Shown: in pieces, positions 6,977-14,461 of the stretch
How the letters are laid out: every line of letters starts with the position of its first letter
Numbering within the stretch: the stretch's first letter is position 1
IMG/VR virus record: IMGVR_UViG_3300033049_000066
Span: 229,279 to 293,278 of that record
From: a virus
DNA length: 64,000 nucleotides
Strand: one strand, 5' to 3'
The notes under the pieces: generated by a model
Seen by the model: only the letters and a program-made list of their open reading frames with translations
The model's database searches: none
What the model was told of the DNA's origin: nothing
Position numbers and translations under genes: made by a program

Positions 6977-9940
6977 TTGATTAAAATTAAAAGTTTGGTT
7001 GTAAAAAACTTTATGAGTATCGGAAACGCAAGTCAAGCCGTGGACTTTGACCGTGATGACTTGACCCTCGTTCTTGGGGAGAATCTTGATCTTGGGAGCA
7101 ATGGTGCGAGAAATGGTACCGGGAAGGCGCAACCGTTGTACTCAAAAATAAAAACACCCGGTGGCTGGGCTACAATGGGCGATATGGTCGTTGGGCAAGC
7201 CATCACCACACCTACCGGGGGCAGTGCTGAGGTCAGTGGCGTTTTCCCACAGGGTGAGGTAGAAACATACAGAATTCATTTTTCTGATGGTAGGCAAACA
7301 GATGCTTGCAAAGACCATCTGTGGAAAGTTTACTCGCACTCGTTTAAAGATAAATGGCAGGTTCTAACTACTGCTGAGTTAATTTCGCATACAGAAAAAT
7401 ATAAAAATCATAAAAATAAATCTACGTACTACAAATATGTTCCGTTGATTATCCCAGAAAATATTGCAGACATTAAGTTGCCATTTGATCCATATTTCCT
7501 TGGCGCGATGCTCGGAGACGGTGGCATGACCGTACACGGTATCGGGTTTACAACTGCTGATGACGAAATGTTTGAAAATATGAAACAGGTTCTGCCAGAA
7601 AATTATCAGATAACAAAAAATCATTATGATGACTACGGATATTCATTAAAATTTATTAATCGAAAAAAGTACAGCACATTACGACTAGGATTATCTGCGC
7701 TGAAGTTATACGGAACGAAATCAGCAACGAAATTTATTCCAGAAATATATAAAAATGCCTCCATTAATCAAAAAATAGAACTTATACAAGGGATAGTAGA
7801 CACCGACGGTTATGTCGCAAAGAAAAACGGGTCACTTTCTATTACAACCGTCAGCAAGCAAATGGCGGATGATATTCAAGAAATAATACAGTCTATTGGC
7901 GGGATCGCTAAAATAAAAATTAAAACGAACTGTGGGTATAAAAAAGACGGCATATTTATACCATGTCAGGACGCCTACACCGTTTGCATCACATACCATA
8001 CTCCAAAACTTTTAGCTCGACTTAGCCGGAAAAAAGATCTCTTACCGGGTGAGAATTATCAGTACAAAAATAGAAAATTAAGAATCGATCATATAGAATA
8101 TATTGGTAAGATTGAATCCCAATGTATTATGGTCGAACACTCAGATCACTTATACATTACAGACAATTATATTGTTACACATAATACGACGTTGATAAAC
8201 GCTCTGAGCTATGGGCTGTACGGCAGTGCGCTTTCTGAGATTCGCGTGAACAATCTTGTCAACAAAACTAACAGAAAAAATATGCTCGTGTCGGTTGAGT
8301 TCAGCATCGACGAGGCGCAGTACAGAATTGAAAGGGGCAGATCTCCAAATGTGCTGAAATTTTACAAAAATGATCTTGAGCAGAAGGATGAGGATGGTGC
8401 GCAGGGCGAGAACAGGGAAACGCAAAAAGAGATAAATGATCTACTGGGGCTGAGTCACGCGATGTTCAAACACGCTGTCGCGCTAAACACCTACACCACC
8501 CCGTTTCTGTCTCTCAAGAATGCTGACCAGAAAGATATTATCGAGGAGCTTCTCGGAATCACTGTCCTTACCGAGAAGGCCGAGGCACTGAAAGCGGTCA
8601 ACAAGATCACAAAGGATGGGGTCAAGGAAGAAGAATTCCGGCTTGAGACTATCATGAAGGCGAATCTGCGAATTGACGAACAGATTGAGGGGTTGAAGCG
8701 CCGGCAGCGGATGTGGCAGATCTCCCACAATAACACAGTAGATGGTTATACTTCAAAGATTGAAAAATTGATGGTGGTCGACATCGAAGACGAGATTGCT
8801 AAGCATAACCGCAATGCGAAAATCCGGGTTGATACTGACAAGAAAAACACCAAGGGCAAAGCAGCAGTTGACAAATTTAACGCTGAACTAAAAATTCAAA
8901 AGGATCGTGAGATTGCCGCCATTGACAAATTCAACTCTGCTGTGCTAGAATGTAATCGGTGGATCAAACAAATTGAAAATGATACAAAGGCCCAGGAGCG
9001 TCGGTCGCAAGCGTTACAAAGAGATATTGATTTACTAGAAGATCACAAGTGCCACGCCTGCGGGCAGGATCTCCATGATGAGACACAGGAAGCAAATATT
9101 GCGGCTAAGAAAACAGAATTAACAGAATGTGCAATGCAGATTCTATCTAATCAAACGCAGGATACAGAGCAGAAACTAAAACTTGCGGACCTTGGCTCAC
9201 CGCCGGTAACAAAAGAAGCTAAGAAAGCCAAAACGTTCAAAGAAGAGCAGTACAAGGGCAACCTCACTTTTTACAAAACCATCGACGAGGCTCACGGACA
9301 CAAGAGCTCGCTCGCTACGCTCACATCGCAGCTTGAAACCGCTGTAGACACTGCTGATCCGTACGTTGAACAAGTAGACGAAATGGTTGCTAGTGGGCTA
9401 GTTGAGGTCTCTTACGAATCTTTAAATCAGCTTGTCGAGCTACAAGAGCATCAGGCATTTCTACTAAAACTTTTAACGAGCAAAGATAGTTTCATTCGCA
9501 AGAAAATCATTGAGCAAAATTTAGCGTACTTGAATGGGCGGCTTACATATTACCTCACTGAAATCGGGCTTCCGCATCGTGTGCGGTTCATGTCGGATCT
9601 TAGCGTTGAGATTACAGACTTGGGCAGAGACCTGGACTTTGACAATTTGTCACGGGGTGAGAGGACTAGGCTGATTTTGTCTCTGTCTTGGGCGTTTAGG
9701 GATGTCTGGGAAAGTCTGTACAGCCACATCAACTTACTTTTTGTAGACGAGCTTGTCGACAATGGACTTGACACAAATGGCGTCGAAGCCGCTATTAAAA
9801 TTATGAAAAGTATGGCGAGGGAGCGTGGGAAAAGTGTTTGGCTGGTCTCGCACAGAGAAGAATTAATTAGCCGCGTGAATAACACAATGAAAGTGATTAA
9901 GAGCGGTGGCTACACTGAATACAGTAGCGAATTAGAATAG
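6977..9940 (+). CDS. 46: Recombination nuclease ATPase gp46 (Rad50/SbcC-like), interrupted by an intein
   Basis: SMC-like ATPase partner of gp47. The start is a TTG at 6977 with GGAG eight bases upstream; no ATG fits. The N-terminal lobe reaches Walker A (GARNGTGK/TT), which an intein (residues 51-403) splits between Lys and Thr. After it come coiled-coil arms (about 540-800), a zinc hook HKCHACGQD near residue 695, and a C-terminal lobe with the signature LSRGERTRLILSLS and Walker B LLFVDELVDNG. The spliced protein would be about 634 residues, slightly longer than T4 gp46 (560). ATPase activity requires splicing because the P-loop is broken. It ends directly against the convergent endonuclease VII-like gene. 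Confidence 0.92.
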   Translation: MIKIKSLVVKNFMSIGNASQAVDFDRDDLTLVLGENLDLGSNGARNGTGKAQPLYSKIKTPGGWATMGDMVVGQAITTPTGGSAEVSGVFPQGEVETYRIHFSDGRQTDACKDHLWKVYSHSFKDKWQVLTTAELISHTEKYKNHKNKSTYYKYVPLIIPENIADIKLPFDPYFLGAMLGDGGMTVHGIGFTTADDEMFENMKQVLPENYQITKNHYDDYGYSLKFINRKKYSTLRLGLSALKLYGTKSATKFIPEIYKNASINQKIELIQGIVDTDGYVAKKNGSLSITTVSKQMADDIQEIIQSIGGIAKIKIKTNCGYKKDGIFIPCQDAYTVCITYHTPKLLARLSRKKDLLPGENYQYKNRKLRIDHIEYIGKIESQCIMVEHSDHLYITDNYIVTHNTTLINALSYGLYGSALSEIRVNNLVNKTNRKNMLVSVEFSIDEAQYRIERGRSPNVLKFYKNDLEQKDEDGAQGENRETQKEINDLLGLSHAMFKHAVALNTYTTPFLSLKNADQKDIIEELLGITVLTEKAEALKAVNKITKDGVKEEEFRLETIMKANLRIDEQIEGLKRRQRMWQISHNNTVDGYTSKIEKLMVVDIEDEIAKHNRNAKIRVDTDKKNTKGKAAVDKFNAELKIQKDREIAAIDKFNSAVLECNRWIKQIENDTKAQERRSQALQRDIDLLEDHKCHACGQDLHDETQEANIAAKKTELTECAMQILSNQTQDTEQKLKLADLGSPPVTKEAKKAKTFKEEQYKGNLTFYKTIDEAHGHKSSLATLTSQLETAVDTADPYVEQVDEMVASGLVEVSYESLNQLVELQEHQAFLLKLLTSKDSFIRKKIIEQNLAYLNGRLTYYLTEIGLPHRVRFMSDLSVEITDLGRDLDFDNLSRGERTRLILSLSWAFRDVWESLYSHINLLFVDELVDNGLDTNGVEAAIKIMKSMARERGKSVWLVSHREELISRVNNTMKVIKSGGYTEYSSELE
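7127..8185 (+). other. Ala1-type LAGLIDADG intein in the gp46 Walker A motif
   Basis: A 353-residue intein starting with Ala51 (AQPLYSKIKTPGGWATMGD) and ending ...HLYITDNYIVTHN, followed by Thr404. The C-terminal His-Asn is present. The nucleophile at position 1 is Ala instead of Cys or Ser, as in KlbA-type inteins that skip the first acyl shift. Two LAGLIDADG helices, LGAMLGDGGM and IQGIVDTDGYV, keep their acidic residues. The insertion is exactly at GK/T of the P-loop. Confidence 0.88.
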
Positions 9941-10471
9941 CTACTTATAATAAAAGTTAGTAGTACTAAACTCCTCGAAGAGTTTACTCAAACCTTTTGT
10001 TAATTTACGAGATTTGGGATAAGGTGGTACTTTCTTTTTAGGATATTTTGCTTTGAAAAGTTTGATCATTTTATTATAGGATGATTTTTTAACTTTTTGA
10101 GCTTTAGGAACCTCGGATGGATGGATATAAACCTCCCCGTCTTCGGTATACGCACCGGCTTCTAAGTAGTCAGCTAAGTTGCGTAAAAATGTAGGAAGAT
10201 CGGTCGGGTGTTTGGATTCATCGGCCCCATAATAACGTTTCCAATTATTCGTTATTTTTCCTTCAATGGCATTTGCCCGGAACTCAATCGCATTGCGAAT
10301 TGTTCCTTTGTTAGGTGCGTAAGGCTCGGAATTTAGCTTATGTATATGATCTAACACGCATTTGTCGATAGGGATTTTAATCCCCAGTAATGGACAAACT
10401 TCGTTATTTTGTTTATGAAGTTTTTCTTTAAGGATCTTGATATCCTTGACTTTGAGCTCGACGTATTGCAT
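9941..10471 (-). CDS. 49: Recombination endonuclease VII-like protein (gp49 family, His-Me finger)
   Basis: A 176-residue protein. The segment CVLDHIHKLNSEPYAPNKGT followed by IRNAIEFRANAIEGKI parallels the endonuclease VII core (LDHDH..., KVRGLLCNLCNAAEG in T4 gp49), which resolves Holliday junctions and branches before packaging. The catalytic LDH is kept. The second zinc Cys pair of T4 is replaced (EFRAN), so metal structuring must differ. The tail is lysine-rich. A late element at 10478-10485 lies 6 nt before the ATG with no Shine-Dalgarno site, suggesting a leaderless transcript. The gene is convergent with gp46. Confidence 0.8.
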   Translation of the reverse strand: MQYVELKVKDIKILKEKLHKQNNEVCPLLGIKIPIDKCVLDHIHKLNSEPYAPNKGTIRNAIEFRANAIEGKITNNWKRYYGADESKHPTDLPTFLRNLADYLEAGAYTEDGEVYIHPSEVPKAQKVKKSSYNKMIKLFKAKYPKKKVPPYPKSRKLTKGLSKLFEEFSTTNFYYK

Positions 10472-11313: not shown

Positions 11314-11595
11314 CTAAAAAAACGGAAGGCCGGATTTTTGCGTGGTTTCGAGATTATCCTCTGCGATCTTTGTAATTAGCTTTCGTTCTGCCGAACTTAA
11401 ATTCATTGCGGTGTCGTACTGAATACCCCCACGCATAGCCCATGCATGATGTAAGCATTCTTTTCGTATAGCGAGGGATTCTTTTTCTAGTTGATCAACG
11501 AACTTGGATATTTGCTCAGAGTTTAAGATTGTTAGCTTTGATCGAAAAAAGATGTCATGTCTAACGTAAAGTGCTGATCGTACGTATGATTGCAA
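11314..11595 (-). CDS. 51: gp51-like tail/baseplate assembly protein, probably expressed by -1 frameshift from gp26
   Basis: The frame encodes FVDQLEKESLAIRKECLHHA, AWAMRGGIQYDTAMNLSS and ends TTQKSGLPFF, a signature of the small protein that follows gp26 in T4-like aquatic phages (gp51-type assembly factor). It overlaps gp26 by 64 nt in the -1 frame. The only ATG (11595) gives an N-terminus MQSYVRSALYVR that lies wholly within gp26 codons and lacks a ribosome site. Family-like sequence begins only after the slippery site at 11544-11550. It is therefore more likely translated as the C-terminal part of a gp26-gp51 fusion than from its own start. Confidence 0.7.
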   Translation of the reverse strand: MQSYVRSALYVRHDIFFRSKLTILNSEQISKFVDQLEKESLAIRKECLHHAWAMRGGIQYDTAMNLSSAERKLITKIAEDNLETTQKSGLPFF

Positions 11596-12434
11596 ACATG
11601 TGTATTTGGCTTAGTATCTTTGGCGCCTTCTTCATCATTATCTAGTACTTCATCTTTGATTAGCTCGGTACATTTAATTTTTAGAGGCTTAAGAATTTCT
11701 TTAGTCTTTTGTTCAATGACTGAGGCTTTGATCTTTTTGTACATAGAAGTTTCACAATTCTTTAAAAATTCTAATATATGTTCTTCTTTACTAACTGTAC
11801 ACTCTGGTGTTGTAATTGAGGCTATATTCTTCGCGAGCGTAGTGAGTGTGTACTCTGATACTTTTTTGAACGTGTCAGAGAGTAATTTAATTTGATCTTC
11901 TTCTTTTAGTGTAGAATCAACCAATAAGTGACTCAGCTTCTGCTCTTCAAACTGTAATTTATTGTTTTCGTTTAAATCTTTGTAAGTCATTGGCTTAAAT
12001 GCGATAGTTAAATCACCTATAACCATCACTTTACTGTAGTCAGTTGGTACAATTGAGTCAAGAACCACTCGTAAATCGACGTTGTACCCAGCAACATTAG
12101 CACAACTTGGGCATTTGGTTTCAATTTCCATATCATGGCCGAAGCTAGCGATTCTAATCGCGCACAGTACGGCGGTTAAGTCCGTTACCGGCATCGTCCA
12201 AGCATCTTTAATGGAAGGAATACAGCTTTCTATAACCTGTACGACCGCTGATCCATTGAACAAAGCGTCCGGGGTTTTATACGTTATCTCGTCAATCGCC
12301 GTCATGGGTAAAACCGGCACTTCACCAGTCTCAGGTAGATCAAGTTTTCCATCACCGTAACCTTCACCCTTGCTTGGTAATGCTAAGTGAATAGAGGCGG
12401 TTCTAAAGTACTGCGATAAAGGATTTTCGCTCAT
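11532..12434 (-). CDS. 26: gp26-like baseplate/tail assembly protein
   Basis: A 300-residue protein of the T4 baseplate protein family (gp26 type). Visible features: N-terminal PLSQYFRTASIHLALPSKGE, the zinc-like CPSCANVAGY motif at about 108-117 and a C-terminal CNHTYDQHFTLDMTSFF, typical of this family. T4 gp26 acts in hub assembly. The gene lies beside, and divergent from, the probable tape measure. Its last codons contain T TTT TTC in frame, ten bases before the stop, aligned for slippage into gp51. Confidence 0.8.
   Translation of the reverse strand: MSENPLSQYFRTASIHLALPSKGEGYGDGKLDLPETGEVPVLPMTAIDEITYKTPDALFNGSAVVQVIESCIPSIKDAWTMPVTDLTAVLCAIRIASFGHDMEIETKCPSCANVAGYNVDLRVVLDSIVPTDYSKVMVIGDLTIAFKPMTYKDLNENNKLQFEEQKLSHLLVDSTLKEEDQIKLLSDTFKKVSEYTLTTLAKNIASITTPECTVSKEEHILEFLKNCETSMYKKIKASVIEQKTKEILKPLKIKCTELIKDEVLDNDEEGAKDTKPNTHVCNHTYDQHFTLDMTSFFDQS
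11544..11550 (-). promoter_or_regulatory. Candidate -1 frameshift slippery heptamer T TTT TTC
   Basis: On the minus strand the gp26 frame reads TCT TTT TTC GAT CAA AGC TAA. The heptamer T TTT TTC fits X-XXY-YYZ. A one-base back-slip continues as CGA TCA AAG CTA ACA, which is exactly the gp51 frame. This is the arrangement used by lambda G/GT-type tail assembly chaperones. Confidence 0.6.
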
Positions 12435-12511: not shown

Positions 12512-14461
12512 ATGGCAGACGAAACGCAAGAAGAAATTGAACAACGAGAAAAGATGGTTGAGGTTTTGCTTGAGCAGATTCGCGCTGGTGAAAAAAGCAT
12601 TGACGCAACATTAAAACGGTACTTAGCGGAAACCAAAACCGGTAAGGCCATTAGCGAAACTCACACTGCAACTACGAAACTTACTAAAGGATTCACGAGC
12701 TCAGCACAAGCACTTGCAGGCAGTACCGGCAATCTCAACGATCTCTCGTCAGTCGTCAGCGGGACCATTGGAGCGATTACAGGATTGCTAGGATCCATTC
12801 CGCTAGTCGGGCCGGTCATTGAGAAATTTGGTGATGTTGCTGCCGAGACAATGACATTTGCGATGGGGCAAATTCAAGCAGGATTTTCATCGTTTCAAGA
12901 ACTGTCAAAAGTAGGATTAATCGGCGCAAATGGCATCGACGGAATGTCACAGGCAATGCGAGACAGCAACATACCACTCGCGACCTTTTCAAAATTGCTA
13001 ACCACTAGCTCACAGGACTTAGGGTTCTTGTCATCATCCGCACTAGCCGGCAGCAAGAAATTTAGCAAATCGTTAGCGATTATGTCCGACGATGCTGGCA
13101 AACCACTACGTAGATTAGGGTTAAGCGTTGAAGAGATAGGCGAAACAATCATTGACTTCCAGGTGATGCAACGACGTCAAGGAATCCTCGGGCAGTTGAG
13201 CCAAGACCAGATAAAGAAAGGTACTGAAGAATACGCAAAAGAATTAGACTTAATCGCAAAATTAACTGGTAAGTCCAGAGCAGATGTACAGAAAGAACGC
13301 GAAGCAGCAATGAGTGATTCACGCTTTCGTGCTTCAACAGCTGAGATGGATAATAAAACACGCCAGAAGCACATGGACGTATTAGCACTGATGACCGACC
13401 CAGCGCAGAAACGTGCGTACATGGATAACGTCTCGGGCTTTACTAACACCGCAGCGGCCATACAGCAAGAAATCAATGGCATGGGCTCAACAATTCGGAA
13501 AGTAATTGATGATATCAACGGAGGGGGTAGCGCAAAAGATGCCTTCAATGCTATAATTTTACAGTCACGAGAAGTAACTAAAGTCGGCGGAATGCTCCAC
13601 CAGATGGCAAAAGTCATGGAATCTGATGGAAACCCGTTTGGTAGCTATGCTGATGCTGCCGACATGGGAGCAAGGGAATTAGTCACCACAGCTGATATTC
13701 TTAAGGCTCGCAATAAACTAATGGATACCGAGGGAACAAAAACTGATAAGATAGTTACGTCAATGATGGAATTACAAGAATCCACCGCCGCATTAAATAA
13801 TTTGTTCATCGGAACTGACGGAGCCATTGAGGTAATATCAATGTTTAGCAGCGTAATGCACAAGACAATCAAGTTCATTGAAGGCGAACTATTAGACAAG
13901 AGGAGTTTTACTGAAAAAACTGGCGAATGGTTCTCCGATTTCACTAGTGGGACCACAGTCGATAGCGTAATTAGTACAATGTCAAACCAGATAAATTCTG
14001 CCCTCGGCACTAATGATAGTCTAGGCAAGTATGTCGGCGGTAAAGTGCACGATGCGTTTGGTGACAAACCAAAATTTGCGAATGCGCCAGCCCGGGATTT
14101 CGAGTACGTTAACGGAGTTCCTGAATTCGCATCCCGCAGCCAAGGTGCCACCCCGTCTCCAATAACGCCGCAGGTAGCCCAAGTTGCCGCAGCAAGATCA
14201 ACCCCACAAGTTGATCCAATTGCCCTTCAACGCAGAATCCTAGCAAAAGAAAAAGAACTCGACGCTGGACTGAGTAAATTTAGAATTAAAGCTGAATCCG
14301 ATCTTTCAAAATCATTAAATGCGGATGAAAGAGCAGGCGGCCGAGAAATGATGTCAGAGCTAATGCAAATTCGTAACGAATTGAAGAAATTAAATAACAC
14401 CGCAACGAAGCAAAATCAAGGCATTGCAAATGTTGATAATTCGATTAAACGGGCCAGTTAA
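12512..14461 (+). CDS. Probable tail tape-measure / hub protein (gp29-like)
   Basis: A 649-residue protein with a charged N-terminal helix, then a glycine-rich hydrophobic stretch (about 85-115: SGTIGAITGLLGSIPLVGP) and long helical Ala/Ser/Gln-rich segments, typical of tape-measure proteins that set tail length and pass into the tube. It lies beside gp26/gp51, as tape measures lie beside their chaperones in many phages. T4 gp29 has 590 residues. No enzymatic motif is seen. Identification is by architecture and context. Confidence 0.55.
   Translation: MADETQEEIEQREKMVEVLLEQIRAGEKSIDATLKRYLAETKTGKAISETHTATTKLTKGFTSSAQALAGSTGNLNDLSSVVSGTIGAITGLLGSIPLVGPVIEKFGDVAAETMTFAMGQIQAGFSSFQELSKVGLIGANGIDGMSQAMRDSNIPLATFSKLLTTSSQDLGFLSSSALAGSKKFSKSLAIMSDDAGKPLRRLGLSVEEIGETIIDFQVMQRRQGILGQLSQDQIKKGTEEYAKELDLIAKLTGKSRADVQKEREAAMSDSRFRASTAEMDNKTRQKHMDVLALMTDPAQKRAYMDNVSGFTNTAAAIQQEINGMGSTIRKVIDDINGGGSAKDAFNAIILQSREVTKVGGMLHQMAKVMESDGNPFGSYADAADMGARELVTTADILKARNKLMDTEGTKTDKIVTSMMELQESTAALNNLFIGTDGAIEVISMFSSVMHKTIKFIEGELLDKRSFTEKTGEWFSDFTSGTTVDSVISTMSNQINSALGTNDSLGKYVGGKVHDAFGDKPKFANAPARDFEYVNGVPEFASRSQGATPSPITPQVAQVAAARSTPQVDPIALQRRILAKEKELDAGLSKFRIKAESDLSKSLNADERAGGREMMSELMQIRNELKKLNNTATKQNQGIANVDNSIKRAS

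Follow-up and report, generated by a model that had tools for sequence, protein, structure and literature searches.

The gp26-like gene and its surroundings

The locus lies in a stretch of 64,000 nucleotides (the window), which covers positions 229,279 to 293,278 of a virus record of 293,278 bases in IMG/VR (IMGVR_UViG_3300033049_000066). It comprises a gp26-like gene that carries a slippery heptamer near its end, a second reading frame that stays open beyond the stop codon of this gene, and a divergently transcribed neighbour (Table 1). Other genes of the source record encode a portal of the T4 type (PF07230, E = 6.9e-102), a prohead protease, and a gp46-like protein, and the nearest named relatives by the gp26-like gene are Sinorhizobium phage Phosso, Agrobacterium phage Atu_ph07, and the RaK2/121Q group. 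The source virus is best classed as a T4-like jumbophage.

Table 1. Features of the gp26-like locus, in coordinates of the window
Feature	Coordinates	Strand	Basis
gp26-like short chaperone (TAC-N), 0-frame ORF, 300 aa	11532..12434	-	PF12322 T4_baseplate / PHROG 150 baseplate hub
Slippery heptamer T TTT TTC (X XXY YYZ in 0 frame)	11544..11550	-	Conserved in relatives
0-frame stop TAA of the short form	11532..11534	-	Read from sequence
-1 frame extension (TAC-C), 76 residues after the slip, RSKLTILNSEQ...KSGLPFF, helical	11314..11550	-	Open frame, codon-position entropy, AlphaFold
Putative tape measure, 649 aa, divergently transcribed neighbour	12512..14461	+	Position and RaK2 annotation (putative identity)

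The gp26-like protein matches PF12322 with an E value of 1.4e-12 and 48.2 bits (cut-off 24.5), which places its N part in this family, and PHROG 150 with an E value of 1.6e-15; it is encoded by the only PF12322 gene in the 293-kb record. We modelled the short form and the extension with AlphaFold as two separate chains. The model of the gp26-like protein resembles predicted T4-like baseplate hub assembly proteins (best E value 2.8e-23, TM-score 0.82), and no solved structure in the PDB, solved tail assembly chaperones included, matched it at E ≤ 0.001. With low TM-scores but a probability of 1.0, it also matched uncharacterised predicted proteins of about 500-690 aa from other jumbophages (Erwinia Special G, RSF1, phiEaH2, RP12, and Klebsiella Eowyn); judging from the models, it is possible that these serve as tail chaperones there.

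The initial annotation had placed the gp26-like gene next to a probable tape measure gene. On the one hand, the position of the ORF at 12512-14461 agrees with this, its product has a glycine-rich hydrophobic stretch and is fast evolving, and its RaK2 counterpart is annotated as similar to tape measure. On the other hand, this ORF is on the opposite strand, as its relatives always are with respect to gp26 (54 loci found by tblastn), and its product matched no family, tape-measure families included, in Pfam, PHROG, and further family searches; thus, we use the name tape measure for it as a putative one. Scans of the divergent intergenic region for sigma-70 and late-promoter-like sequences gave no clear excess over chance.

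Two other genes of the window deserve a mention. The gp46/SbcC-like gene (6977-9940, plus strand) contains an insertion that keeps the frame and bears homing endonuclease domains (LAGLIDADG/Hom_end) at residues ~265-339; it is most likely an intein. The ORF at 9941-10471 (minus strand) has a weak match to endonuclease VII (T4 gp49-like; E = 5e-4, below the Pfam cut-off), and an endonuclease VII gene is found near the corresponding place in RaK2, 121Q, CBB, and GAP32.

Conservation of the slippery heptamer

On the minus strand, the gp26-like gene ends with GAC ATG ACA TCT TTT TTC GAT CAA AGC TAA. The in-frame heptamer had been described as lying ten bases before the stop; it is where it was said to be (11550-11544), with a spacing of nine bases. 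A slip by one base yields TTT TTT CGA TCA AAG CTA ACA and enters the downstream frame as proposed, and this frame remains open to 11314. The overlap of 64 nt with the gp26 gene (mechanical ORF 11595-11314) and the fusion of about 373 residues (297 + 76 = 373) were likewise borne out. The heptamer alone is unremarkable, because the window contains 27 copies of it against 28.3 +/- 5.3 expected by chance; what stands out is its conservation in relatives.

A search of IMG/VR with the gp26-like protein yielded 80 loci with 43-67% identity, and together with the window all 81 sequences have the heptamer in frame. In these 81 sequences it starts 10-19 bases before the gp26 stop; over the close relatives as a whole, the distance from its start to the stop is 10-25 nt. 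Both the type of stop codon (TAA, TAG, or TGA) and the residues between the heptamer and the stop vary among relatives, whereas the heptamer is constant. The -1 frame is open for 71-74 codons beyond the stop in all loci but two, and both of these are contig ends.

For a synonymous-codon test, we took 55 sequences less than 90% identical over the extension and 80 columns of gp26 in which the amino acid is conserved and a synonymous choice exists. The commonest codon had a mean share of 56% over these columns and reached 100% in only two of them, which are the two Phe codons of the heptamer (TTT in 55 of 55 sequences and TTC in 55 of 55); elsewhere in the gene, Phe is encoded by 293 TTT and 164 TTC codons. 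The base preceding the two Phe codons is T in all 55 sequences, although the residue to which it belongs changes. Coding for Arg in the -1 frame partly fixes the C of the second Phe codon, an explanation that fits less easily for the first Phe codon and the preceding T. Because the sequences are related, the product of the codon frequencies should not be read as a probability. The difference from the remaining 78 columns can nonetheless be read directly. The heptamer singled out by the initial annotation is kept while synonymous codons around it vary.

The same T TTT TTC is present in the named jumbophages Phosso, Atu_ph07, RaK2, 121Q, SCTP-2, Vibrio 2.275.O, PA5oct, CBB, Munch, GAP32, and Hallingskeid, and the variant T TTT TTT is found at the junction in jumbophages XacN1 and CM1. 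In the uncultured phage LR756511 (595 kb), G GGT TTT TTC is located ~70 bases before the stop, and the extension is more divergent.

The -1 frame and its alternative explanations

The extension is 76 residues long in the window, a length shared by all complete IMG/VR relatives, and 71-77 residues long in Phosso, Atu_ph07, RaK2, and 121Q, and the -1 frame is open in every relative with a long enough contig. It evidently evolves as a protein in the -1 frame, under selection: past the gp26 stop, entropy at codon positions 1, 2, and 3 of this frame is 0.84, 0.51, and 1.49, respectively. The AlphaFold model of the extension is a confident helical domain with four helices (pLDDT 86). The window extension had no matches in PHROGs (PHROG 634 included), Pfam, or NCBIfam, and a fold search with its model returned nothing informative.

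Could the extension be a small gene in its own right, with a start codon of its own or with ribosomes reinitiating after termination at the gp26 stop? A separate short CDS is indeed annotated at the junction in the S-PM2, KVP40, 121Q, Phosso, and SCTP-2 records; there is an ATG at the junction in Phosso, Atu_ph07, and 121Q, and in Phosso and Atu_ph07 it overlaps the gp26 stop as ATGA, which suits this reading. In the window, however, the only start in the -1 frame before the middle of the extension is a TTG at 11595, inside the gp26 gene (the next one is an ATG at slip+114), and this TTG has no Shine-Dalgarno match of at least 4 nt at the spacing tested, in agreement with the earlier statement that the downstream frame lacks a ribosome site. 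Nor are relatives with a separate gene and a good ribosome site, which the initial annotation had named as contrary evidence, the general case: 38 of 85 loci have no ATG, GTG, or TTG between the opening of the -1 frame and slip+30, and a start with a 4-nt or better Shine-Dalgarno match was found in only 7 of the 85. In two loci (L056 and L057), the heptamer is the very point at which the -1 frame opens. Independent translation therefore cannot be the general explanation. A separate gene would also leave the strict synonymous fixation of the heptamer unexplained, and the conserved residues begin at FFR, right at the slip. We therefore consider a separate gene very improbable.

Slightly less probable still is a shift at the level of the RNA, with the polymerase instead of the ribosome slipping on the six T. 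In favour of this, the site consists of a T run, which has seven T in some relatives, but six T is short for bacterial polymerase slippage, and the following C, the codon phase, and the preceding T are all conserved, which fits slippage of two tRNAs. Furthermore, related phages are described with poly-T ribosomal sites in the Adele paper (PMC12846349). Finally, a chance overlap, or a sequencing or assembly indel splitting one gene, would agree with the unexceptional frequency of the heptamer in the window but is refuted by the comparison, in which over 90 sequences of different phages are split at one and the same codon, and its probability is negligible.

Comparative sequence analysis shows a conserved slippery site, a selected -1 frame that lacks an independent start, and an N part homologous to T4 gp26 and gp51, and we consider it highly probable that ribosomal -1 frameshifting produces a short and a long form from the gp26-like gene. 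Most ribosomes would terminate at 11532 and release the gp26-like protein of 300 residues. A smaller share, holding tRNA-Phe in both the P and the A site over UUU UUC, would move back by one base to UUU UUU and continue with CGA; the 76 helical residues gained in this way would give a protein of 373 residues, the counterpart of T4 gp51.

A stimulator common to the whole group was not found among upstream SD-like sequences and downstream structures. An SD-like stimulator upstream of the heptamer was present in 0 of 59 sequences, the window has no stable RNA structure downstream of the slip (z = -0.17), and no consensus downstream RNA structure was found among relatives. Relatives do fold downstream more stably than control stretches (mean z of -1.62 vs. 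-0.11, over 100 nt), and in many of them CCTC, located after the slip, could base-pair with a complementary GAGG-type motif ~55 or 75 nt farther downstream. Within the set L001-L080, GCCTC after the slip (at slip+14) is accompanied by a GAGGC-type complement at slip+68 or +89 in 42 of 45 loci; this pairing could be a stimulatory stem, and both motifs are also coding.

Tail chaperones of T4-like phages with and without the frameshift

T4 gp26 and gp51, which PMC3004832 lists as chaperones of hub assembly, are paralogues: PF12322 matches the full length of both (E = 8.8e-64 and 3.9e-52, respectively). T4 gp51 carries an additional C-terminal part that matches PHROG 634; it thus consists of a gp26-like part and a C-terminal tail weakly resembling the jumbophage extensions. 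In T4, the two forms come from two genes on opposite strands without a slippery site: gp26 of the T4 type ends with E-F-F encoded as TTC TTT, or otherwise, and lacks the heptamer, and gp51 of this type holds its tail in frame. The record studied here has a different arrangement, in which one PF12322 gene with a slippery site would serve for both forms. Two PF12322 genes are present in T4 and in two further genomes (G008 and G010), whereas jumbophages and other T4-like phages in which the family was detected have one (SCTP-2 fell below the threshold in this count). In the T4-type record G009, gp51 is split into two PF12322 matches in different frames. In a profile comparison by hhalign, jumbophage extensions showed weak similarity to the tails of T4-like gp51 (probability 46%, E = 2e-4), compared with a maximum of 3% in 30 column-shuffled controls.

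The initial annotation had a gp26/gp51 pair using a strategy like that of lambda G/GT. The frameshift is supported by relatives, but what follows the slip corresponds to only the C-terminal ~50-75 residues of "gp51", that is, to its tail. Because T4 gp51 is a full-length gp26 paralogue plus a tail, it is the frameshift product, not the downstream frame alone, that would be its counterpart.

The layout seen in the window is common to other T4-like phages: the cyanophages S-PM2 and P-SSM2 as well as PhiW-14 and KVP40 have it with TTTTTTC, and Cr30, phiM12, and HTVC008M with TTTTTTT. The extension in these seven phages is shorter (roughly 55-65 residues). In KVP40 and S-PM2, the gene order is tail tube, gp26, extension, as in lambda. 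In Rhodothermus phage RM378, the PF12322 gene ends with TCC TTT TTT TGG and the extension is in the +1 (= -2) frame, not in -1; this junction is a different shift or a sequence error. The extension is named "gp51" in the S-PM2 record, and the KVP40 record notes a similarity to 40 C-terminal residues of T4 gp51. In the public records of 121Q, Phosso, Atu_ph07, S-PM2, KVP40, and RaK2, it is a separate small gene, truncated, or missed.

The slippery site of phage lambda is GGGAAAG, as opposed to UUUUUUC here; no sequence similarity between lambda and the window was seen, and the window gene is not co-linear with the putative tape measure gene. The lambda gpG/gpGT system nevertheless resembles what is proposed for the window: near its tape measure gene, a short product is made together with a version extended by -1 frameshifting at a low level. 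The tape measure protein is bound by gpG and gpGT, and the tube protein by the T part (PMC5009743). The tail assembly chaperones of T4-like phages were treated by Vladimirov, Gautam and Davidson (2022, Virology 566:9-15), cited by the PRFect (PMC10885494) and Adele (PMC12846349) papers. As relayed there, some T4-like phages have poly-T -1 sites and others have separate genes for the short and long forms. The PF12322-type short form, the C-terminally extended long form, and the poly-T -1 site are as in the window, which differs in its longer gp26 (300 aa) and extension (76 residues) and in having the putative tape measure gene on the opposite strand. According to these accounts, the locus is a further example of the TAC-N/TAC-NC pair (the lambda G/GT logic), which was described in T4-like phages in 2022, and not a new phenomenon.

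We infer the production of the fusion, the ratio of short to long form, the chaperone function, and its partners; a tail chaperone role for the short and long pair is likely. Coating of the tape measure protein is the probable task of the short form (TAC-N). The less abundant long form (TAC-NC) probably brings in subunits of the tail tube as well, which would start tube polymerisation.

The locus extends the rule of -1 frameshift chaperones in T4-like phages to many environmental and enterobacterial jumbophages. This single rule lets annotators repair many records in which the long form is now omitted or misdrawn, and it marks the neighbouring ORF (12512..14461) as a likely tape measure. It also presents a natural experiment, with one gene and a slippery site in most lineages and two genes without it in T4. 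The chances are about even that all of the T4-like supergroup, the giant branch included (possibly as far as LR756511), inherited the cassette from its ancestor, that a gene duplication took the place of the cassette in the T4 branch alone, and that the giant branch put the chaperone and putative tape measure genes on opposite strands. If so, with these genes on opposite strands, their stoichiometry would be set across two transcripts.
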